The notes under the pieces are model-generated. The model saw nothing but the letters and a program-made list of their open reading frames with translations, searched no databases and had not been told where the DNA came from. From the NCBI GenBank assembly GCA_036003045.1, contig DASYSS010000001.1, positions 1 through 32,201 of the forward strand: DNA of 32,201 nt. Direction: 5' to 3'. Each line of letters opens with the position of its first letter. Positions within the stretch are counted from its first letter, which is position 1. This DNA is from Gemmatimonadaceae bacterium (GTDB taxonomy: Bacteria; Gemmatimonadota; Gemmatimonadetes; Gemmatimonadales; Gemmatimonadaceae). Shown here piece by piece: positions 13,692 to 24,349 of this stretch. The translations under genes were made by a program, and so were the position numbers.

Positions 13692-14669
13692 TCAGATTTC
13701 CCAGTTGGACAAGACGAGCCCGTGCTCCGGGCGTCGCTCTTCATACGCACTCAAGGACATTCGTAGGTCCGTCCATCGCACGTTCGCGCCCATCGCGATG
13801 ACACGGCGGTAGGCGGCCGCGAATTCGCCCTGCACGCGCAGCGAGACGCGGCGCGTTCCGCTGCGTCGCGCGAGATCGCCCACCGCGCGCAGCATGTCCT
13901 CGAACCGCGACTCGTCCTCGAGCGCCAGCTTCAGCACGCGCAGCTCCTCGCGCGCGCGACCTTCGACGAGCGGGGCCGTGTGCGCCAACGCAAAGCCCAC
14001 GACACGGTCGCCGTCGTACAGCAAGACGGTATCCCCGACCGACAGATCGCTCGTGAGCGTGATCTCCCGCGAATAGTCGTATCCCGGAAGCAAGCGCTGT
14101 ACGAGCGCGCGGCACTGGCCGAGCGCGTCATCGCGCGCGCGAGGAGACAGCCGGCCGAACAGAAGCATCCCGCCGGCGTCGATCGCGTTCTGCGCTTCGA
14201 GCGTCATCGTGATCGTCAGCCGGCCGGGGAGAAATCCGAGCCGCGAATAGAACCCGATGTTGTCCATCGTGCGCGGCATCGTCTCCAACCCGATGACCGA
14301 TGACCCCTGCGCCTTGAGCCACTCGACGCCCCGCTGCACGATCTCCTTCCCCATCCCGTTCCCCTGGTACTCGGTCCGCACGGCGAGCGGACCCATCCAT
14401 CCTTCCGCGCCGGAACGGTGCACCATGTTGAAGGCGGCGATGTGATCGCGGTCGTCTCGCCAGATCATCGCGCCTTCGGCCGCGTCCTCGAGCGCGTAGC
14501 GCCAGATCGACGGGTTGAGAAACGGCACCCGCACCCCGACCATGCCGTCACGGCGATAACGCTCCGTGAACGATTCGCTGAAGACCTGGTTCAGCTCGCC
14601 GATGTCGTCCGCCGTCGCGCGGGTCGGACCGTCGAACACCTGCGGACGAAACGCTCGCGACGTCGCCAT
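13692..14669 (-). CDS. GNAT acetyltransferase with two GNAT-like halves
   Basis: This encodes 325 residues. The N-terminal GNAT domain carries the acetyl-CoA-binding motif A, LAVRTEYQGNGMG (Q102-x-x-G-x-G), and a typical NIGFYSRLGF strand. The C-terminal half (about 200-310) looks like a second, more diverged GNAT fold with VVGFALAH and MGANVRWTDLRM. Tandem GNATs usually acetylate small molecules or protein N-termini; the substrate is unknown. The ATG overlaps the sbcC stop by one base (TGATG), so it belongs to the same transcript as the repair genes. Confidence 0.87.
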   Translation of the reverse strand: MATSRAFRPQVFDGPTRATADDIGELNQVFSESFTERYRRDGMVGVRVPFLNPSIWRYALEDAAEGAMIWRDDRDHIAAFNMVHRSGAEGWMGPLAVRTEYQGNGMGKEIVQRGVEWLKAQGSSVIGLETMPRTMDNIGFYSRLGFLPGRLTITMTLEAQNAIDAGGMLLFGRLSPRARDDALGQCRALVQRLLPGYDYSREITLTSDLSVGDTVLLYDGDRVVGFALAHTAPLVEGRAREELRVLKLALEDESRFEDMLRAVGDLARRSGTRRVSLRVQGEFAAAYRRVIAMGANVRWTDLRMSLSAYEERRPEHGLVLSNWEI

Positions 14670-17119
14670 CAGTCCGCGGCCCCCGCATGAAGCGCCAGCT
14701 GTGGGTCGTCGCTGCGCGCCGCCTCCGCATCCACGCGCGACATCCCCGCTTCGTCGTCGTAGCTCACGGTGATCACGCGGTCCACCGGCGCCTCGCGCAC
14801 CGACTCGATGTGCGTGATGAGGATGATCTGCTCGAACCGATCGTGCAGGCGCTGCAGCAGGCCGACGACGTTCTGCCGGCGCGACTCGTCGAGCGAGCCG
14901 AACACTTCGTCGAGCACGAGAAGCGAAAAAGCCTGACCGGCGCGTTCGGCGATCATCTCTGAAATTGCTAGGCGGAGTACGAGATTGGCGAGATCCTCTT
15001 CGCCCCCGGAAATGACTGGCTTCGGGATCCCATCCTCCAGAAGGACGATCTGGTAGTCGTCATCTAACTCGAACTCGGTATATCGGCCATCCGTCAACTC
15101 CCGAATGTACCGGCTGGCCAGATCCGAGATCTCGGGGCGCATCGCAACGTTTAGCTCGGTCCGGAGGTCTGAAAAAGCGCGGTCCAGTTCTTCGTGCAGC
15201 TTGCGATCCCGGCCGAGCACGACCAGGCGCTCCTCCGCGCGCGCCAGCTCGGCCCTCGATTGCTCGGCCGACGCCAACGCGACCTTCGCGGCGGCGAGCT
15301 CCGTTTCGGCGCCCACCGCGGCCAGCTCGGCCGAGCGAAGCTCGGCCTCAGCCGCGTCGAACCGTCCGCGGAGAGCGTTGAAGCCGTCTTCCGAGAAGGC
15401 CAGCGCCTTCTTCTGACGATCGATCTCGGCCCTGCGTCGCTGGATGTCGTCCAGCTTGGACCGCACGGCCGTACGCTCTTCGACCAGGAGCGGCTCACGT
15501 TCGAGCTGTGCCGCCAGCTTCGTCGCGCGCACCGCTAGCGGCATCAATCGCTCGACCGCCGTGCGGACCTCGCCGTGACGCGCCGCATCGTAGCTCACCG
15601 CCAACGCCGCGAGCTCGCGCGAGACGGTGGAGTGTCGCTCTTCCTTGGCGATGAGATCGACGTGGATGGTGGACAGGCTACGCAAACCCGACTGAATCTC
15701 GGCGACGCGCCGTTCGAGCTTGGCTGACGTATCCATCAGCTCGCGGCGCCGTTCGCCGAGCGCGGTGATCTCGGGCGGTGTGGCCGCCAGTTGCTCGATG
15801 CGCGCGCGGAAATATTTCCCGTCGACGGTGATCGTCTCGATCTGGTTGTCGAGCACGTCGAGCACCGAACGGAAATGCGTGCCGAGCGGCCGAGCGCAGA
15901 TCGGACAGATCCCGCCCTCGCCGAGCTCCACGATCTGATCGCGTTGCGCGCGGACGTCTTTCAGCTGCTCGATGAGCGCGTGGCGCTTCGTCTCCGCTTC
16001 CTGCTTGTCGCGCACCCAGTCGGTCTGCGCGGCCTCCAGCGCCCGCTGAGTCTCGTCGAGCGATTCGCGCGACTGCTTGAGCGACGTCGCGACTTCGGTC
16101 TCGACTGCGGGGGTGAATTCAATCTTGGATGCCCGCTCGCGCAGCTGCGCGATTTCCTTGGCAAGCGTCGCTTCGTTTTCCGTGAGCGTTCGCTTGCGCC
16201 CGGCTTCGGCGGCGCTGCGATCGAGCTCCTTGAGCTCGGCCTCGAGCGACGGCAGCGGCGCGAGCTCACGTCTCACGCCATCCAGTTCGGCGCGCCCCGT
16301 GGCCGCCTCGCCCAGCTCGCGATCGATCCGGGAGATTTCCCGCGCCACCGACGTCAGTTCGCCATCCGAGACGCGCGATTCAGCGGTCAGGGTCTGCGAC
16401 CGCTCGCGATCGCGCTGCATCGATTCCCAGCGCGGCGCAATCTCCTCCACCGTCTTCCGAGCGGTCGTTCGCCGAAGGCCGAATTCATTCGCCTTGCTGG
16501 TGCTCTCGGCGATGCGAGCCTTCGCGTCGGCGAGGGCGCCCTGAACGATATCGGCGTCCGGCATGCCCGCGCGAAGACCCGTCGCCTCGGCGACGAGCAT
16601 CTTGCGCCGCTCGCGGGCGAGATCCTGTGCCGCGCGCAACCGCTCGTAGCCGAGGACGCGCGAGAGAAATTGGCCGCGTTCGGTCGGGCCCATCGCCGCC
16701 ATCACGGCCAGCTCTTTCTGTCCCGTGAAGTAGGTGTGGAAGAACTCGTCGCGGTTCATCCCCAGCCGTCGCGCCAGCACGTCCGTCACCCCGGAGATCG
16801 ACGTCGCGATCGGCGAGGATGCGCCGTCGAGATACAACTCGGCGTTGGTCAGCCCGCGCGAAACGAGATATCGATGCGCGCCGAGCTCGAACTCGAGGTC
16901 GACTTTGACGACGGCGCGCGGTCCCGCGCGATACGAACGAATCGACTCTCGCTTGCCACGCGCGGCCGGCGCGCCGTACAGCGCCCACGCCATCGCTTCG
17001 AGAATCGTCGACTTGCCCGACCCGTTCGGCCCGATGATTCCGGTGATGCCCGTCGAGAAGTCGATGTGCGTGTCGACGTGCTGCCGGAAGTTCGTGAGGC
17101 GCAGGCTGTTCAGTCGCAT
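14669..17119 (-). CDS. sbcC: SbcC/Rad50-type SMC ATPase
   Basis: This encodes 816 residues, in the size range of archaeal Rad50 and shorter than E. coli SbcC. The N-terminal Walker A is GPNGSGKS (30-37). Long coiled coils flank a zinc hook CPIC (Cys405, Cys408) that dimerises the arms. The C-terminal ABC signature SGGEEDLANL lies near 700, with Walker B LLVLDEVFGSLDE near 733 and the H-loop LITHIES after it. With Mre11/SbcD it forms a DNA-end processing complex that uses ATP to open or clip blocked ends. It starts one base after the sbcD stop, and the two are surely coupled. Confidence 0.96.
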   Translation of the reverse strand: MRLNSLRLTNFRQHVDTHIDFSTGITGIIGPNGSGKSTILEAMAWALYGAPAARGKRESIRSYRAGPRAVVKVDLEFELGAHRYLVSRGLTNAELYLDGASSPIATSISGVTDVLARRLGMNRDEFFHTYFTGQKELAVMAAMGPTERGQFLSRVLGYERLRAAQDLARERRKMLVAEATGLRAGMPDADIVQGALADAKARIAESTSKANEFGLRRTTARKTVEEIAPRWESMQRDRERSQTLTAESRVSDGELTSVAREISRIDRELGEAATGRAELDGVRRELAPLPSLEAELKELDRSAAEAGRKRTLTENEATLAKEIAQLRERASKIEFTPAVETEVATSLKQSRESLDETQRALEAAQTDWVRDKQEAETKRHALIEQLKDVRAQRDQIVELGEGGICPICARPLGTHFRSVLDVLDNQIETITVDGKYFRARIEQLAATPPEITALGERRRELMDTSAKLERRVAEIQSGLRSLSTIHVDLIAKEERHSTVSRELAALAVSYDAARHGEVRTAVERLMPLAVRATKLAAQLEREPLLVEERTAVRSKLDDIQRRRAEIDRQKKALAFSEDGFNALRGRFDAAEAELRSAELAAVGAETELAAAKVALASAEQSRAELARAEERLVVLGRDRKLHEELDRAFSDLRTELNVAMRPEISDLASRYIRELTDGRYTEFELDDDYQIVLLEDGIPKPVISGGEEDLANLVLRLAISEMIAERAGQAFSLLVLDEVFGSLDESRRQNVVGLLQRLHDRFEQIILITHIESVREAPVDRVITVSYDDEAGMSRVDAEAARSDDPQLALHAGAAD

Positions 17120-17120
17120 C

Positions 17121-18311
17121 TCACGCCTCGATCGCCGCCGGCGGCGTCGAAACGACGGCCGCGACTTGCGCTTCGTCCAGATACGCGATCGCCCGCTCGA
17201 TCAGCGTGTCGCGGTCGACGTCGGCGTCGATCACTCGAGCGGCCAGCTTCTCGCGGACGATTTCGTTGAGCGACGGCCGCCGCATCGGCGCCCCGGACGA
17301 CGTCACGCGATTCAGCTCCGGGCGCCGGAGATCGAGCTGGAAGCTCAACGCGCGTCGCTTGTAGTCGCGAATCGTCTTGTGGTCCAGCTCGCGCGCGATG
17401 TGCCGCGGAATGTCCCACACCGTGAGACGCACGATCTTGTCGTCGATGCCGTCGACGCACGCGTCGACGATGGCGCGGATTCGGTGGTCGATGTCCGCCG
17501 CGACGAGATTGCGCGCGTCGATCGACGGCAGCTCGATGAGGGGACGCGACGGCGGCAGCGGATGAAACGTCTGCGTCCGCTCGACGAGGTCGTATTCGAT
17601 GAAACCCTTTCCCTTCGGGCCGTCGGCTTCTTCGCGCTTTTCACCCCACGTATCGACGCTCGTGTAGTCGATCGAGCCGCTGAAAAAAGCGTTGGGCTTG
17701 AGCTCGCGGTACACGTGGTAGTGTCCGAGCGCGACGTAGTCCCAGGCAGGCGCATTCAGCTCGGAGGGCGACACTTCGACCGGCGGACGGTCCCACGCCA
17801 CGTTGTCCGCGAGGCCTTCGATCCCGCAGTGCATCGCCAGCACGTTGTACCGCGCGTCCGAATCGATCGTGAACGACGGCTTCACCAAGCCCGGCACGTC
17901 CGGCACGGCCAACACCGAGAGGTCGAGGTGCGGAAACGAGAGCCGCCGCGGCTGACGGTCGACGACGTCGATGCCGTTCAGCTGCGCGAAGAGCTGGAGG
18001 ATCCCGCCCGTCTCGCTCGTGCGCGGAGTATCGTGATTCCCCGCCACGAGCACGATCGCCGATTCCGGCAGCGCGGTGACCAGCCGGCTGAACTGCAAGA
18101 ACGCGTGGACGATCGCCTGATTCGAGGGACGGACGTTGTGGAAGACGTCGCCGGCCACCACGACGAGCTCCGGCCGCAACTCGATGATCCGGTCCACCAC
18201 CACCCGGAACGTCGTGGCGACGTCGGCTTCGCGTTGGTTGACCCCGGTCGGCGTCAGACGCTGATACTGCCGGTAGCCGAGGTGCAGGTCGGAGAGGTGA
18301 ACCAGGCGCAT
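17121..18311 (-). CDS. sbcD: SbcD/Mre11-type DNA exonuclease
   Basis: This encodes 396 residues from ATG 18311, where the family alignment begins (MRLVHLSDLHLG). An upstream in-frame start at 18464 would add 51 residues that overlap the neighbouring gene and match nothing. The metallophosphoesterase motifs are Asp8/His10, GD (Asp55), GNHD (Asn92-His93-Asp94), His161 in AMHCG, and GHYH (His197/His199). The usual Asp after GD-x-F is His here. Mre11/SbcD is the manganese-dependent 3'-5' exonuclease and endonuclease partner of Rad50. The C-terminal 100 residues include the capping domain. No clear Shine-Dalgarno is seen. Confidence 0.95.
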   Translation of the reverse strand: MRLVHLSDLHLGYRQYQRLTPTGVNQREADVATTFRVVVDRIIELRPELVVVAGDVFHNVRPSNQAIVHAFLQFSRLVTALPESAIVLVAGNHDTPRTSETGGILQLFAQLNGIDVVDRQPRRLSFPHLDLSVLAVPDVPGLVKPSFTIDSDARYNVLAMHCGIEGLADNVAWDRPPVEVSPSELNAPAWDYVALGHYHVYRELKPNAFFSGSIDYTSVDTWGEKREEADGPKGKGFIEYDLVERTQTFHPLPPSRPLIELPSIDARNLVAADIDHRIRAIVDACVDGIDDKIVRLTVWDIPRHIARELDHKTIRDYKRRALSFQLDLRRPELNRVTSSGAPMRRPSLNEIVREKLAARVIDADVDRDTLIERAIAYLDEAQVAAVVSTPPAAIEA

Positions 18312-18334
18312 GCGGCGGGAGGCGTTGAACGAAT

Positions 18335-19174
18335 CTAACGCTCTCGACGCTCCGCCGTACGCATGTGTTGGATGATTCGCATCTGCATCCGCAGCGCCGA
18401 CGCCGCGGGAGGATTCGTCACGGAGGTCATGACGAGGATGTTGAACCAGGACTCGCTCAACCAACCGCGCTTTCGGTCGAGAATCATTGACCCGCTCACC
18501 GATCCCTTTTCGAGAACGGCTTGAGAGGCGGCGCCCGGCCCGCTGGCCGGCTGCATCTCGCCGCGCATCGACACGTACGCCAGATCTCCGGCGTGGGTCA
18601 CCGAATCGAGGCGAAGCGTGACGTGCAGCATCCCGGACAGCTGCGCGCCGAACTCCGTGCCCGAAGGCAGCGGCATTTCGCGCATCCAGGTATCGCCGAC
18701 CCTGATCGGCCCCTTCGGGAAGGTCGCGGGCACGAGCGCCACCAGGTGCGCGACTTCGCGCGGCGTCCCGGCCGCCGGTTCCAGCGCCAGCAACCCTTCC
18801 GGGGTCACACGGAACCGGACCCGCTGGCCTTTCAGCCTCGCTTCTATCTGATGGGCAGCGACGATCCCGCGCTGGTCCGTGCTCCAGAGCCTCACCGAAT
18901 CGGTGACGGCGAGAACGGCCGTTTCTTCATTCGCTTCGCCCTCGACAATGGCGCGGGAGAACATCGCCATCGTCGTGACGAGACTCGCGGGACCGACGCC
19001 CGTTCGCAGGACGGCAGCGCCCGTGTAGTCCGTTTCCTGGTCGAGACGCATACGGAGCGTGTCGCCGGCGCGCGGCCGGATCTGAAGCAGTAGCTCCTGC
19101 GCGAACGCACCGTGAGCCGATGCGACAGCGAAGAGCCCGACACTTGCGCCGATGCGGACCGGCCGCGGGAACAT
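18335..19174 (-). CDS. Secreted protein of unknown function within the repair operon
   Basis: This encodes 279 residues. A cleavable signal peptide (about 1-25) ends in AFA before QE, so the mature protein should be exported to the periplasm or surface. The mature part is predicted beta-rich, with repeated hydrophobic strands such as YVSMRGEM and KGSVSGSMIL. No catalytic motif is evident. It lies between herA (8 bp upstream) and sbcD (23 bp downstream), all on one strand. This placement of an exported protein inside a DNA-repair cluster is unexpected. I do not recognise the family; an uncharacterised DUF6263-like protein is possible. Confidence 0.72.
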   Translation of the reverse strand: MFPRPVRIGASVGLFAVASAHGAFAQELLLQIRPRAGDTLRMRLDQETDYTGAAVLRTGVGPASLVTTMAMFSRAIVEGEANEETAVLAVTDSVRLWSTDQRGIVAAHQIEARLKGQRVRFRVTPEGLLALEPAAGTPREVAHLVALVPATFPKGPIRVGDTWMREMPLPSGTEFGAQLSGMLHVTLRLDSVTHAGDLAYVSMRGEMQPASGPGAASQAVLEKGSVSGSMILDRKRGWLSESWFNILVMTSVTNPPAASALRMQMRIIQHMRTAERRER

Positions 19175-19182
19175 TCGAGCGC

Positions 19183-21156
19183 TCAGAACCCGTAGGGGTC
19201 GTCGGCCGGTGCGGATCGGATCGCGGCCGCAGGCTGTCGTTCCGCGGGCTGCGCCGCGACAACCGGCTTGAGCTGCGACACGAAGAACTTCTTCACGTCG
19301 GCCGGCCGCTCGCGCAGCGTCGCGTTTCGCGCTCGAATCACTTCTTCGTCGTCGCGGATGCCGATCGCGTCGCGCACCCAGTTCAGCGTGACGGACGGAT
19401 CGAGCGAGCGCAGACTACGGAGCACGGCGGCATCGAGGTCGATGTCCACCGACTGCGGATACTTCTCGATTCCGTCGCGCCCCCGCATGATGGCGGGCCG
19501 CGGAAATCGAACGAAGATCGGCTGCGTGAAATGCGGATGCCGCACCATCAGCTGCCCCTTTTCCAGCGTCGCGAGCTTGGTCTTCACGGCCTGGCTCAGG
19601 ACGGCGTAACCCGGAGTCGCCAACTCGTCGGCGTCCATGCGGCCAAAGAGCGCCGTGCCGGAATTGCCGACGACCCGCCGGTGAACCTGCGAACGAAATT
19701 GCTGCGCTCCGAAGAGCACGAGGCCCAGATACCGGCCGCGTTCCGCGAGGTCGAGCAGCATCTTTCGTACATAGGTGTCCTGTCCATCGTTCGGCGCGTA
19801 TTTGTTCAGCTCGTCGACGAACACGATCACATGGTTCACGCCGAGGTCGCGCTTCTCGAGATGCTCGCGGAGGCGAGTGACGACGCGCGCGAAGATCAGA
19901 TCCTGCGCATCCTCCTCGAGGGAGGCGACGTCGATCACGTACACCGTGCGGTCCTGAAAGCTCCCGAAAGGCAGGTCGCTCACCGTTCCAGCGTCGGTCA
20001 CCAGGCCGGCACAACGCGTCGAAATATTGGACAGGCGGTTCCGGACCTTGCGGATGGTGGCCACGTGGTGCGTCCGCCAGCCCTCGTTCCCTTTGTTTTC
20101 CATCGCCGACAGAACGTCGCGGAACCACATCTCGAGGTCGGCGAACGAACGGACGAGGTACCGTTTGTTGCCAAGAAGTGGATCCGAGAAGTCGCGATCC
20201 ACGATCCGCTCTCGAATGAAGTCGATCAACGCGTCGGCCTTCGCGTCCACGTCGTCTTTGTTGAGCAGAACCTCCGCGTACTGCAGCACCTCGCGAAGTC
20301 CCCATGTGAGCGGCGTCACATTGTTCGTCAGCTCGTCGTTGGACCGGAGCGTGTTGAGCGAGAATCCGTCCGACTTGAACGGCGCGAAGTACTGGACGTT
20401 CTCGAATGGCGTGGCGGGGACGCCGCACTTTTCGTAGAGAGCCGAATCGCGGTCGTCGATCGTGCCGGGCTGATCCAGAAAGCAGAGGTCCGGCCCTTTG
20501 ACGTTGAAGCACACCGCCGCGATCGATCCCTTCTGCGCCGGGAAGTGCGTGAAGATCGAGCTCATGATCCATTCGATCGCGCTCGTCTTCGTGGCGAGCC
20601 CCGACACACCTGTGATGTTCAGATGCGCCGCTTCGGGCCCGATCAGAAAATCGGCGTCCAGATAGATCGGAGCGTCGGTCCCCCCGGCGTGATAAACGCC
20701 GATCGGGATGCCGGTACGCGCGCCGTCGCGCAGATATGCGTCCATGCGCAGCGCGATCGCCACGTCCTCGTCCGCCGCGAGAAACACCTGCCCCATCGGC
20801 ACGGGCTGAAGCGGCTCCTCGGGCACCTGCCGGAGCACCGCCGCGCTGTAGAGGCGAATCTCGGCGCGGCGCGTAGCCGCGAGCGACGCGGCGGTCGGCG
20901 CGCCGTCGTGCCCGAGCACGTCGTGCAGCGGCGTCGCGAGGTCGGTGTAGCTCAGACCCTCGACGACCACCCCATATATCTGCGGAATCGATCCGTTGAC
21001 CGGCGCGTCGCCCTGTGCGCGAACGATCGTGCCGATACCGACCGGCGAGTCGAGCGCCGTCCAGAAATGGAACTCGTGCGGCGTGTTCGGCTTGCGCTCC
21101 GTGGCGACTACGCGGCCGAGCGCGGTGGGGGTAGGAACTGGTTCGTCGATCGTCAC
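19183..21156 (-). CDS. herA: HerA-like ATPase (DNA translocase)
   Basis: This encodes 657 residues from GTG 21156, overlapping the NurA stop by 4 bp (GTGA). The N-terminal 170 residues form a HAS-barrel-like domain. The P-loop reads GVSGLATKTS (183-192), where Thr replaces the last Gly of the Walker motif. This form resembles a group of HerA-like ATPases in cyanobacteria as I recall it. Walker B is VIVFVDELNK near residue 444. A conserved AQQFRSQVHRRVVGNSGT segment follows. HerA forms a hexameric ring that translocates DNA and works with NurA to resect double-strand break ends. Confidence 0.92.
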   Translation of the reverse strand: MTIDEPVPTPTALGRVVATERKPNTPHEFHFWTALDSPVGIGTIVRAQGDAPVNGSIPQIYGVVVEGLSYTDLATPLHDVLGHDGAPTAASLAATRRAEIRLYSAAVLRQVPEEPLQPVPMGQVFLAADEDVAIALRMDAYLRDGARTGIPIGVYHAGGTDAPIYLDADFLIGPEAAHLNITGVSGLATKTSAIEWIMSSIFTHFPAQKGSIAAVCFNVKGPDLCFLDQPGTIDDRDSALYEKCGVPATPFENVQYFAPFKSDGFSLNTLRSNDELTNNVTPLTWGLREVLQYAEVLLNKDDVDAKADALIDFIRERIVDRDFSDPLLGNKRYLVRSFADLEMWFRDVLSAMENKGNEGWRTHHVATIRKVRNRLSNISTRCAGLVTDAGTVSDLPFGSFQDRTVYVIDVASLEEDAQDLIFARVVTRLREHLEKRDLGVNHVIVFVDELNKYAPNDGQDTYVRKMLLDLAERGRYLGLVLFGAQQFRSQVHRRVVGNSGTALFGRMDADELATPGYAVLSQAVKTKLATLEKGQLMVRHPHFTQPIFVRFPRPAIMRGRDGIEKYPQSVDIDLDAAVLRSLRSLDPSVTLNWVRDAIGIRDDEEVIRARNATLRERPADVKKFFVSQLKPVVAAQPAERQPAAAIRSAPADDPYGF

Positions 21157-22133
21157 ATCACGGCTCGGAGAAACTCTTCACAGTCGCGAACTCCGTAGAC
21201 CATCTTGTCCCACCGCCCGTCGGGGAGCGCCAGCGGCGCCGCCTCGGCGAGGATCCATCGCGAAACTTCGTCGGCGCGCGCGCCGATGTCATCTCGACCG
21301 GCCGGGGCCGAGACTTCGACGCGGACGAGACCCCACATCGGGTCGCGCCCGGCACGGTCGCGGAGGCGGAGATACCAGCTCGCCACGGGCGCACGCTTTT
21401 CCGGATTGATCGAGAAGACGCTCGTTCGCTGCGCCGCCTCCAGGCCGAGCGTTGCGCGTAGCGCGTCGCCTTGCACGTAGAGCGTGCGGTGGCTCTTCAC
21501 CACGCCGATCGCGCACGCCGAGCGGGCGATCGGCTGCGCAGCGCTGATGCCGCCGTCGATCAAGAGCGGCCGCGTTTCGACCGCGCACCATTCCTTGGCC
21601 AGCGCGTGCTCGAGCGACTCGCGGTCGTTTCGCACGAGGTTCCGGGCGAGCTCTCGAAGCGTCAGCGGATGCTCGATCGCGTCGGGCGTGCCGGCCGTCG
21701 TGTCTCGAACGTTCGCGCCACTCGTGTCGAGCGCCCGCCGGTCGGCTTCGTTCAGGTATCGAGCCGGAACGTAGATGCGTTGATCGACACGATGACTCCA
21801 TGTGAACATGCGACGGTCGCGGCGCTCGCGGATCACTGCGCCGATCGTCCCCGCGACGATTGGCACGCCGCCGGGCCGATACATCTTCACCGTGCTTTCC
21901 TGGCGCCCGTCGAGGAATGCGGCGATCGCCACCTCGAGCGTGTCGCCGACGTCGATGGCGCGCAGGTCGCGCCCCTCGATCACGGTCGCTTGGGCGAGCT
22001 TGGGCGGGTCGGCCGCTTCGGCGACGAGCTCGAGCGGCGCCTCGCCGTCGATGGCTTCACCGTCTGGGAATAGGGACGCGAGCCAGCGACCGATCGCGTG
22101 GTCGGGACGGACGGCCGTTCGCTCGGTACTCAT
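21153..22133 (-). CDS. nurA: NurA-like nuclease
   Basis: This encodes 326 residues from ATG 22133 (MSTERT), 11 bp after the methyltransferase stop. The extended frame to 22184 overlaps that gene and adds nothing conserved. NurA-type signatures are an early DG (Asp75-Gly76 in FLDGRQES), a second acidic motif LLIDGGIS (Asp193), then AIGVVKSHRTLYV with Lys213. The C-terminal end RWDKMVYGV recalls cyanobacterial NurA. NurA is the 5'-3' exonuclease that works inside the HerA ring. The family match is distant, so the call leans partly on its overlap with herA. Confidence 0.78.
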   Translation of the reverse strand: MSTERTAVRPDHAIGRWLASLFPDGEAIDGEAPLELVAEAADPPKLAQATVIEGRDLRAIDVGDTLEVAIAAFLDGRQESTVKMYRPGGVPIVAGTIGAVIRERRDRRMFTWSHRVDQRIYVPARYLNEADRRALDTSGANVRDTTAGTPDAIEHPLTLRELARNLVRNDRESLEHALAKEWCAVETRPLLIDGGISAAQPIARSACAIGVVKSHRTLYVQGDALRATLGLEAAQRTSVFSINPEKRAPVASWYLRLRDRAGRDPMWGLVRVEVSAPAGRDDIGARADEVSRWILAEAAPLALPDGRWDKMVYGVRDCEEFLRAVM

Positions 22134-22144
22134 GCTCGTCGCCG

Positions 22145-22906
22145 TCACGAGCCGACGCGTCCTGCGAGAACGATCACCGGCCAAACGATGCGCCGCGGAC
22201 CGTCATCACGCCACAGCGCGCCCAGCTCTCCCTCCACGACCACGACCGGATCCACTCCGGTCGCCTTTTTGTATCGGGCGGCCGCCGACATGCTCCTCAT
22301 GTAGCCGACGATCTGAGGGAGAAGCCAGTCGTTCTCCAGGGCGAACGGCGGCGCGTCGAGGCGCTCGAACGGAAACGGAATCGTGCGGTATTCGGTGTCA
22401 ACGTACTTCCGCTCCGGCGGCCAATATTCGCCGATGTCCTCGAACATGAATCGGCGCAGCACTTCACCGACCTCTCCCTCCATGCGCGGCGCCGCGTAGG
22501 TCCACGCGACGATCGGCACGTCGGGTCCGGCCGCGACCCGTTTGACCTCCGCGTAGAACTCCTCGTGCGCGAACCAGTGCAGCGCCTGCGCGACGGCGAC
22601 TGCGTCCACCGTGTTCGACCGAATCGCGGTCCGCTCCGCCGCGCACGCGGCCCAACCGACCCTTGGATCTCTCGTTGCGCGCGATAACTGTTCGGCGCTC
22701 AGATCCGTCGCGACGACGAAATCGAACCGGCGGGCAATGTCGCCTGTCGCCTGCCCCGAGCCCGCGCCGCAATCCCAGGCGACCCCGCGGCGAGACGCGA
22801 GCGACGTGAAGTAGTCGATCAGCGCCGCGGGATACCGTGGACGAAACGCCGAATACGCTGCTGAGACTGAAGAGAAATGGTCGGCGGGGCTGCTCGCGCC
22901 GCTCAC
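22145..22906 (-). CDS. SAM-dependent methyltransferase (trans-aconitate methyltransferase-like)
   Basis: This encodes 253 residues from GTG 22906, which overlaps the stop of the preceding O-methyltransferase gene by 4 bp (GTGA). An upstream start at 23104 lies in that gene and is rejected. The SAM-binding motif I is WDCGAGSGQATGD (near 46-58), followed by VVATDLS and the characteristic VAQALHWFA. This pattern is typical of Methyltransf_11 enzymes related to trans-aconitate or Crg1-type methyltransferases. The substrate is unknown. It lies 11 bp before nurA. Confidence 0.88.
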   Translation of the reverse strand: MSGASSPADHFSSVSAAYSAFRPRYPAALIDYFTSLASRRGVAWDCGAGSGQATGDIARRFDFVVATDLSAEQLSRATRDPRVGWAACAAERTAIRSNTVDAVAVAQALHWFAHEEFYAEVKRVAAGPDVPIVAWTYAAPRMEGEVGEVLRRFMFEDIGEYWPPERKYVDTEYRTIPFPFERLDAPPFALENDWLLPQIVGYMRSMSAAARYKKATGVDPVVVVEGELGALWRDDGPRRIVWPVIVLAGRVGS

Positions 22907-23532
22907 CGCACGACCGCGACCGCGACGCCGTCGTGGGTCGGCACGATGATCCCAAGGACGCGCGAGTCGCTCGCAAGACGCCTGTTGAACTCGCGCACCG
23001 CCTTCGTGCGGTCGTCGCTCTCGTCCTGCTCGTACACGCGGCCGCCCCAGAGCGCATTGTCGGCGATGATCAGGCCGCCGGGGCGCACGAGGCGCAACGC
23101 CCAATCGAGGTACGTCGGCAGCGGCTCTTTGTCGGCGTCGAGGAAAATCGCGTCGAACCGCTCGCCGTCGAGGGCCGGAAGTACGTCGAGCGCGCGCCCG
23201 ATCCTGACCTCGATTCGATCGGTAAGTCCAGCGCGCTCGATGTAGCGTCGCGCGAACTCGGCGTGCTTCGGCTCGATCTCGATCGTGAGCAGACGACTTC
23301 CCGGCGGCAGCGCGCGCGCCATGCAGATCGCCGAGTAGCCGCCCAATGTGCCGACTTCGAGAACGCGCCGAGCGCCGATCGAAGTGAGCAGCACTTGCAG
23401 CAACCGTCCTTCGTCGGCCGAAATCGCGATCGGGGGAAGGCCCGTGCGATCGGCTTCCTCACGCAGCGCCGAGAGCAACTCGTCTTCGGCGCTGAACAAT
23501 CCGGCGATGTAGTCTCCAGCTCGGTCTGACAT
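22903..23532 (-). CDS. Class I O-methyltransferase (CCoAOMT/COMT family)
   Basis: This encodes 209 residues, the family length. SAM motif I is VLEVGTLGGYSA (about 57-68). LLTIEIEPKHAEFA and the metal-binding stretch DAIFLDADKE (about 128-137) follow, then IIADNALWGGRV. These enzymes use a divalent metal to methylate catechol-like hydroxyls; bacterial substrates vary. Its stop overlaps the next gene start by 4 bp. The start is 20 bp after the Lrp/AsnC-like gene. Confidence 0.92.
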   Translation of the reverse strand: MSDRAGDYIAGLFSAEDELLSALREEADRTGLPPIAISADEGRLLQVLLTSIGARRVLEVGTLGGYSAICMARALPPGSRLLTIEIEPKHAEFARRYIERAGLTDRIEVRIGRALDVLPALDGERFDAIFLDADKEPLPTYLDWALRLVRPGGLIIADNALWGGRVYEQDESDDRTKAVREFNRRLASDSRVLGIIVPTHDGVAVAVVR

Positions 23533-23552
23533 CGTGGCTGCTTGGCTCGATG

Positions 23553-23831
23553 CTACTCGACGCCGATGTCCCAGGCTTGCTGCAGGTCCTTGCGCGAGTA
23601 CGCGCGGAACGCAGTGAGCGTCTGCGTCCGCCGAATTCCCGGCACGGTCGGAAAAATCTCGGTGACCACGTGCGCGATCTGCTCGTACTCCGGCACGCGG
23701 ACGATCGCGACCAGATCCCAGTCGCCCGACACCGAATACACCTCGGTCACACCTTCGACACCGGCGAGCATGTTCGCGGCCGTCGGAATGAGCGTCGGAT
23801 CCACATGGATCAGCACGATCGTCGTGATCAC
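23553..23831 (-). CDS. Stand-alone Lrp/AsnC ligand-binding (RAM) domain protein
   Basis: This encodes 92 residues from GTG 23831, overlapping the preceding gene stop by 4 bp (GTGA). The whole protein is one AsnC_trans_reg domain, with strands VITTIVLIHV, VYSVSGDWDLVAIVRVP and a final RTQTLTAF. The helix-turn-helix half of normal Lrp/AsnC regulators is absent, and no truncated remnant is seen. Such proteins bind amino acids and can mix into oligomers with full-length Lrp relatives. The ligand is unknown. An aminotransferase gene lies upstream on the same strand. Confidence 0.87.
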   Translation of the reverse strand: MITTIVLIHVDPTLIPTAANMLAGVEGVTEVYSVSGDWDLVAIVRVPEYEQIAHVVTEIFPTVPGIRRTQTLTAFRAYSRKDLQQAWDIGVE

Positions 23832-24349
23832 GGTTCGACGGACTGTGTGGGTGGACAGGGAGGCACGTTGAGAAGCCAGAGTCCCGAAATGCGATTCTTG
23901 TCGTCGACGTCGAACAGGAGATCCCGCGCGACGCGCACCGTGCGAGCGCCGCGCGGCGCGCCGAGCCGGAAATGAAAGTTGCGCTGGCCGGCGTCGGCTT
24001 CGGCGAACAAATGCGTGTCCACCTCGAGCGACGCGACGTCCGCCTTCGTTTTGCTTACCGGTAGAACGACTTGAACATCCTCGATTTGCGTCGGGAGCGA
24101 CAGCGAGGCAAGCTGCCGCACGTCCGGCCAGACCGCGACCTCGACGGCCGCGATGCGGCCGGCGGCGACGTCCAGAATCACCCATGAGCCGTCGTTCCCC
24201 TCGAGCCCCACAGAACCCGACAACCCGTCGCCCGCGCTCGACGTCCGCGGCGAAAGTTGCGCCGAAAGGATGTCGGTGTCGGGGTCCCAGGTGTATTCGA
24301 CGTCTGCCGGCGAAGCGTCAGCCGGATGAAGTTGTACGGCAACCTTCAC
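23828..24349 (-). CDS. Protein with DUF2283-like repeats, unknown function
   Basis: This encodes 173 residues from GTG 24349, with GGAGG about 10 bp upstream. Two segments look alike and resemble the DUF2283 pattern: SWVILDVAAGRIAAVEVAV (about 55-73) and LLFDVDDKNRISGLWLL (about 144-160). The protein is soluble and mostly beta. No function is established for this family. It begins a run of overlapping genes that reaches the repair genes downstream. About 136 bp separate it from the aminotransferase stop, the largest gap in the array, so an internal promoter could lie there, though none is obvious. Confidence 0.72.
   Translation of the reverse strand: MKVAVQLHPADASPADVEYTWDPDTDILSAQLSPRTSSAGDGLSGSVGLEGNDGSWVILDVAAGRIAAVEVAVWPDVRQLASLSLPTQIEDVQVVLPVSKTKADVASLEVDTHLFAEADAGQRNFHFRLGAPRGARTVRVARDLLFDVDDKNRISGLWLLNVPPCPPTQSVEP

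Follow-up and report, generated by a model that had tools for sequence, protein, structure and literature searches.

The window analysed here, an entire 32-kb contig (32,201 nucleotides) from a 5.37-Mb draft genome of a Gemmatimonadaceae bacterium that is 98.5% complete, carries homologues of NurA, HerA, Mre11/SbcD and Rad50/SbcC that are packed, together with a GNAT gene, into one tight and conserved operon, as indicated by gene spacing, profiles, folds, motifs and the gene order found in relatives (Table 1). We consider it likely that this operon specifies a two-stage machine for the processing of double-strand DNA ends, standing in for RecBCD/AddAB. The combination of conserved linkage, intact active sites, apparent absence of RecBCD/AddAB and the pattern in which nurA and herA are lost makes a role in end resection the most likely one.

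In the window, nurA, herA, the secreted-protein gene, sbcD and sbcC follow one another on the minus strand with spacings of 23 bp or less, as the first-pass annotation of this DNA had described; all the reading frames are open and the coordinates have been rechecked. The nurA stop overlaps the herA start by 4 bp, the secreted-protein gene begins 8 bp after herA, 23 bp separate it from sbcD, and a single base pair lies between sbcD and sbcC, the stop of which in turn overlaps the GNAT start by 1 bp. The sbcD start at 18311 (MRLVHLSDLHLG) is internal to a longer ORF extending to 18464. Upstream of nurA (22145-24185), the genes for a methyltransferase, an O-methyltransferase and an Lrp/AsnC-domain protein are likewise close-packed. 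Since a promoter scan of the operon region gave no consensus promoter above shuffled sequences, it is the gene spacing that points to co-transcription of the operon. The secreted-protein gene is a passenger in part of the family, and it occurs without herA too.

Table 1. Genes of the nurA-herA-sbcD-sbcC region and its surroundings (positions in the window).
Feature	Position	Strand	Description
Lrp/AsnC ligand-binding-domain protein	23553..24185	-	upstream neighbour of nurA in many loci
O-methyltransferase (Methyltransf_3)	22903..23532	-	
Class I SAM-dependent methyltransferase	22145..22906	-	GTG start; place kept only within the window's genus
nurA	21153..22133	-	326 aa, ATG start; divergent bacterial-type NurA nuclease (predicted)
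herA	19183..21156	-	657 aa, GTG start; divergent "type B" HerA hexameric translocase (predicted)
Secreted-protein gene	18335..19174	-	signal-peptide-like N-terminus; weak DUF6263 similarity
sbcD/mre11	17121..18311	-	396 aa; metallophosphoesterase nuclease (predicted), metal-binding motifs retained
sbcC/rad50	14669..17119	-	816 aa; SMC-like ATPase, CPIC zinc hook
GNAT-fold protein gene	13692..14669	-	last gene of the run; adjoins sbcC

The first two products of the operon escape the standard family models. Pfam searches returned zero family matches for the window NurA and zero for the window HerA (DUF87 and HAS-barrel included), PF09376, the NurA model, had zero matches in the whole of the genome to which the window belongs, and NCBIfam gave a single weak HerA match for the window HerA (E 0.002). 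Among relatives, PF09376 matches 2 of 33 NurA-like proteins (best E 5.9e-4), and the DUF87 and HAS-barrel models show weak matches in 4 and 7, respectively, of 41 HerA-like proteins. By themselves, Pfam and NCBIfam would have led to a rejection of both identities, an outcome that profile and structure searches overturned. A family profile built on the alignment of the 41 HerA-like homologues from the phylum had D. radiodurans HerA as its sole match among PDB sequences (E 7e-59), and no archaeal HerA appeared at E <= 1; with the corresponding profile of the 33 NurA-like homologues from the phylum, the matches were D. radiodurans NurA at E 5e-6 and, less strongly, T. maritima TM1739 at E 7e-4. 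Thus, of the identities that had been proposed for checking against PF09376 and DUF87, neither was recovered by these models for the window proteins themselves, and both were recovered through their families, NurA by profile and fold, and HerA by a profile that reaches the D. radiodurans protein.

The structural models agree with these assignments. The AlphaFold (AF2) model of NurA (pLDDT 92) has the RNase H-like NurA fold, with D. radiodurans NurA (7F6D chain G) as the best match (Z 19.0, 266 residues, 3.7 Å), followed by T. maritima TM1739 (Z 18.7) and S. solfataricus NurA (2YGK, Z 14.7), the remaining RNase H folds reaching Z <= 9.4. Its predicted catalytic acids D75, E175 and D193, which fall at the FVDG, LE and DG motifs when TM1739 is aligned with the family, are retained in 31, 33 and 33 of the 33 homologues. 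In the case of HerA (AF2 model, pLDDT 80), a HAS-barrel and a RecA-like ATPase fold are present, and Foldseek places D. radiodurans HerA 7WRW at the top (E 2.4e-33, TM 0.64/0.72), with the D. radiodurans chains ranking first (E 1e-28 to 1e-33) and the archaeal and defence HerAs lower. The Walker A (GVSGLATKTS, with K190/T191) and Walker B (DELNKYAP, with D448/E449) motifs are recognizable, and residues K190, T191, D223, D448 and E449, which correspond to K175, T176, D220, D487 and E488 of D. radiodurans HerA, are retained in 41/41 homologues. From these comparisons of sequences and models we identify the 21153-22133 product as a putative NurA of the D. radiodurans type, with predicted nuclease activity, and the 19183-21156 product as a putative HerA of the same type. 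The Pfam misses on HerA are a limit of model sensitivity, and the type-B HerA/NurA of the window is a divergent variant that current Pfam models do not detect. The two remaining repair proteins of the operon carry the Mre11 and Rad50 motifs, and the metal motifs of SbcD, together with the Walker A/B, signature and CPIC (CxxC) hook of SbcC, are retained in nearly all members.

The order nurA-herA-(secreted)-sbcD-sbcC-GNAT is conserved. Among 40 type-B loci, taken from herA-bearing relatives of four families (f1, f2, f4 and f9), the four repair genes all lie inside one 20-kb stretch and in the same orientation in 30 (hand count); nurA is found near herA in 32, sbcD in 37 and the GNAT gene in 34. 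As the arrangement recurs in many genera and in several families of the phylum, the gene order is not due to chance, and the conservation in relatives that had been named as a check is indeed observed. Type-B HerA is present in 159/298 sampled genomes of the phylum. The first-pass annotation had also counted a GNAT protein and methyltransferases among the operon members, a proposal that stands for the GNAT gene, a conserved companion, and is not supported for the methyltransferases beside nurA, which are conserved in the window's genus and sporadic elsewhere. Of the non-repair genes, the GNAT gene is kept most persistently, and it stays even where nurA-herA have been lost. Eight type-B herA loci (L061, L062, L063, L065, L066, L067, L075 and L077) have no detectable nurA in the 20 kb covered; in L065, the place immediately before herA is taken by a small, unrelated gene (~170 aa).

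A second kind of HerA, type A, is found in Gemmatimonadota of families f5-f7. It shares 45-48% identity with D. radiodurans HerA and about 30% with the window HerA, whereas the window and D. radiodurans proteins share only about 28% (a partial D. radiodurans sequence being used for the identities to this species). Near herA in nine f5-f7 type-A loci, nurA is present in 9/9 and sbcD with sbcC in 8/9. Three type-A Gemmatimonadota loci (L101, L102 and L105) have an extra ORF of 1199-1292 aa upstream of herA, with weak SbcC/SMC similarity. A type-A HerA profile scan of 84,980 species genomes yielded at least 514 confirmed relatives, the best 80 of which were examined; these 80 are mostly from Actinomycetota, with Chloroflexota and Acidobacteriota also represented, along with a small number of MAGs that bear the label Bacteroidota or Pseudomonadota. 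In these best 80 of at least 514, sbcD lies within 300 bp of herA at 62 loci and all four genes are together at 57, several of the contigs being short. The earlier statement that bacterial SbcCD usually stands apart from HerA-NurA therefore fails where HerA is of the Deinococcus type. The GNAT gene, in contrast to its frequency near type-B herA, was found in 0/89 type-A loci. In the HerA tree, built from bacterial sequences, type B forms a single clade (support 100/100) on a very long branch, so its exact placement is unsure, and the position of nurA, first or last, largely tracks the tree.

The archaeal affinities of the set deserve separate consideration, since in archaea these four genes serve to trim broken DNA ends, a task for which bacteria usually have RecBCD or AddAB. 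The window SbcC and SbcD score higher with archaeal Rad50/Mre11 models and PDB chains than with E. coli-type SbcCD, and the four families, with a similar linkage, are shared with the archaeal operon (PMC2288612), all of which would agree with the horizontal transfer of the four genes as a block from archaea, that is, with an archaeal system inside a bacterium. An archaeal-like route in a bacterium was the framing of the first-pass annotation, and its term "archaeal-style" is apt in so far as the same four families lie in one operon; however, HerA and NurA are of bacterial (Deinococcus) type by profile and fold. The proximity of both proteins to those of D. radiodurans opposes a recent archaeal transfer, and with the cluster also present in several bacterial phyla, there is no need to invoke a direct and recent donor among the archaea. 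Although the absence of archaeal sequences from the HerA tree leaves room for an ancient transfer, we regard an archaeal block as a very unlikely explanation of the operon.

Several related arrangements are already known, namely the archaeal four-gene operon, the nurA-herA pair of Deinococcus-Thermus and the case of Oceanithermus profundus, which includes sbcDC. The D. radiodurans NurA-HerA (7F6D, 7WRW, 7WRX) resembles that of the window in both folds, in Walker A (G[IV]SG.ATKTS) and Walker B (DELNKYAP), in the NurA catalytic acids, in having nurA adjoining herA and in belonging to an organism without RecBCD (none being detectable in the case of the window); it differs in the HerA divergence and branch length given above, and in that the Deinococcus operon has been described as consisting of herA and nurA, with no sbcDC (PMC9960219, PMC12977600), which the window has. 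Published descriptions of Thermus likewise present nurA-herA without sbcDC. The herA-mre11-rad50-nurA operon of archaea (Sulfolobus, Pyrococcus) links the same four families and is transcribed as a unit in S. acidocaldarius (PMC2288612), whereas the window has HerA and NurA nearer to the Deinococcus type, the order nurA-herA-sbcD-sbcC and an added GNAT gene. In O. profundus, a bacterial hepA/herA is followed downstream by sbcD and sbcC, an arrangement noted by Blesa et al. (2017, PMC5448004) and taken to mean that this organism had recruited sbcDC; in the present survey, the arrangement turns up across many genera and in several phyla, and the window HerA is a separate, divergent type. The type-A clusters of Actinomycetota, Chloroflexota, Acidobacteriota and Gemmatimonadota f5-f7 have the same four genes on one strand, and they differ from the window in often having nurA last and in having no GNAT gene. 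As late as 2026, a paper presents herA-nurA in bacteria as an operon of Deinococcus-Thermus that probably came from archaea (PMC12977600). We found no description of the four-gene cluster in Gemmatimonadota, Actinomycetota, Chloroflexota or Acidobacteriota in the open-access literature that was searched, most subscription papers lying outside the search.

The genome that contains the window also bears on the role of the operon. Family searches of this draft gave no match to the PDDEXK_1 nuclease (AddB/RecB-type) and none to RecC (PF04257), so that neither recBCD nor addAB, both of which had been proposed for a genome-wide search, was detected. RecJ (504 bits, above the cut-off) and RecO are present, together with RecQ-like helicases whose scores fall under the curated cut-off. 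Among the UvrD_C proteins, two are UvrD/Rep-type-like by reading, and one is UvrD-like with an inserted DnaQ-like exonuclease; the latter (L109, G000:C85:153318-156299) is a 994-aa ORF with UvrD/PcrA-like helicase domains and a DnaQ-like (DEDD) 3'-5' exonuclease at residues ~588-750, which makes it a candidate for acting on DNA ends in this genome without detectable RecBCD. With RecJ, RecO and the RecQ-like proteins in place, resection might be carried out mainly by RecJ with RecFOR and a helicase of the RecQ type, a route that has been proposed for Deinococcus, leaving a minor or regulatory part to HerA-NurA and SbcCD, and the finding that D. radiodurans HerA stimulates RecJ, with NurA blocking this stimulation (PMC4663267), would accord with it. 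Nevertheless, the strong conservation of the operon and its intact active sites speak against such a division of labour, and nurA-herA loss accompanies the presence of RecBCD/AddAB, which is unexpected for a minor role; we therefore judge it unlikely.

The distribution of these nucleases within the phylum can be stated more precisely. In the Gemmatimonadota sample, strong PDDEXK_1 matches occur in 30/30 type-A genomes, in which the cluster thus coexists with AddAB-like nucleases, against 23/159 type-B genomes, and 117/159 type-B genomes have neither RecC nor a strong AddAB-like match, a strong match being defined by E below 1e-20, a threshold set after the data had been inspected, in genomes that are mostly drafts. 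PF12705 was discarded as the sole RecB marker, as it matched a true RecB weakly (6e-8 in G055, with 735 bits for TIGR00609) and also matches Cas4-Cas1 fusions (G013 and G102); since this model alone is misleading, RecC (PF04257) was searched too. The fusions (NF049935), with weak PDDEXK_1 matches, lie at G013:C1:927094-928848 (L153) and on G102:C7 (L155).

Genomes lacking herA are informative in this regard. At ten f1 loci (with upstream context), one f2 locus and one f3 locus, nurA-herA alone are missing, and the neighbourhood from the aminotransferase to sbcD-sbcC-GNAT is otherwise intact. RecC or a strong AddAB-like match is found in 14 of the 17 f1 genomes without herA, compared with 30/87 herA-bearing f1 genomes (Fisher p 3e-4, ancestry uncorrected). 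In genus g2, RecC occurs in 2/2 genomes without herA and in 0/10 with it; in genus g4, it occurs in nearly all genomes, whether herA is kept or lost, and this independence implies that RecBCD would allow nurA-herA to be lost without making their loss necessary. Three genomes (G200, G202 and G237) are without herA and also without RecC or a strong AddAB-like match.

According to the mechanism that we propose, SbcC-SbcD (Rad50-Mre11) would bind the DNA end, cut beside blocked or hairpin ends and thereby open access to it. The HerA hexamer, acting as an ATP-driven dsDNA pump, would then feed the duplex to a NurA dimer, which would cut the strands (mainly the 5' strand in D. radiodurans) and leave a 3' tail for RecA loading via RecFOR. 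We infer the enzyme activities, a joint action of HerA-NurA with SbcCD and the part played in recombination from related systems, among them the D. radiodurans NurA-HerA, in which the 5' tail is cut as the complex translocates (PMC9960219). The in vivo evidence on bacterial HerA-NurA is mixed and counts against the resection model, with weak radiation phenotypes in D. radiodurans (PMC4663267). Further points against it are the degradation of both strands by the T. kodakarensis complex (PMC12977600), that RecJ could resect without HerA-NurA, the three herA-less genomes just mentioned, and the type-B herA loci in which no nurA is detectable.

HerA proteins also function in the Sir2-HerA, DUF4297-HerA and TdpAB defence complexes, and RecBCD performs both resection and the destruction of foreign DNA. 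HerA-NurA might mainly serve to destroy dsDNA that is foreign or broken, in an antiviral or clean-up function, the link to SbcCD reflecting a shared handling of free ends; replacement by RecBCD would fit this reading as well, since RecBCD does both jobs. The HerAs of the three defence complexes rank under those of Deinococcus in the HerA fold search, the PADLOC models Mad8 and HerA give weak superfamily matches to the window HerA (2e-8 and 2e-5), and the T. kodakarensis complex degrades both strands, an antiviral role having been proposed for it (PMC12977600). On the other hand, the operon neighbourhood is fixed and chromosomal, with housekeeping genes across genera, unlike a variable defence island, a reading that we reject on account of this conservation, and type B extends over the sampled phylum at the frequency given above. 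PADLOC gives no match for NurA, and the anti-phage partner genes of Sir2-HerA, DUF4297-HerA, MADS and TdpAB are absent beside herA, the neighbours being NurA, SbcD, SbcC and GNAT. Destruction as the main function consequently appears improbable to us, and a RecBCD-like double role, combining resection with the destruction of foreign DNA, would fit all the data.

All together, our results suggest that HerA-NurA-SbcCD is probably a principal route of double-strand-break resection in this lineage, in which RecBCD/AddAB are undetectable. The survey finds clusters of all four genes in Gemmatimonadota, Actinomycetota, Chloroflexota and Acidobacteriota, and we tentatively raise, at slightly less than even odds, the broader proposal that the complex may be a widespread, under-recognised bacterial alternative to RecBCD/AddAB, retained in several phyla, serving as the main resection machine in most type-B Gemmatimonadota and dispensable when RecBCD/AddAB is available. 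The joint loss of nurA and herA beside RecBCD/AddAB turns the replacement of one system by the other into a testable hypothesis. If the complex does replace RecBCD/AddAB, bacteria that are mesophilic and culturable, for instance Micromonospora or Glycomyces (type A) and Gemmatimonadota isolates (type B), would offer genetic systems in which to address the disputed role of HerA-NurA.
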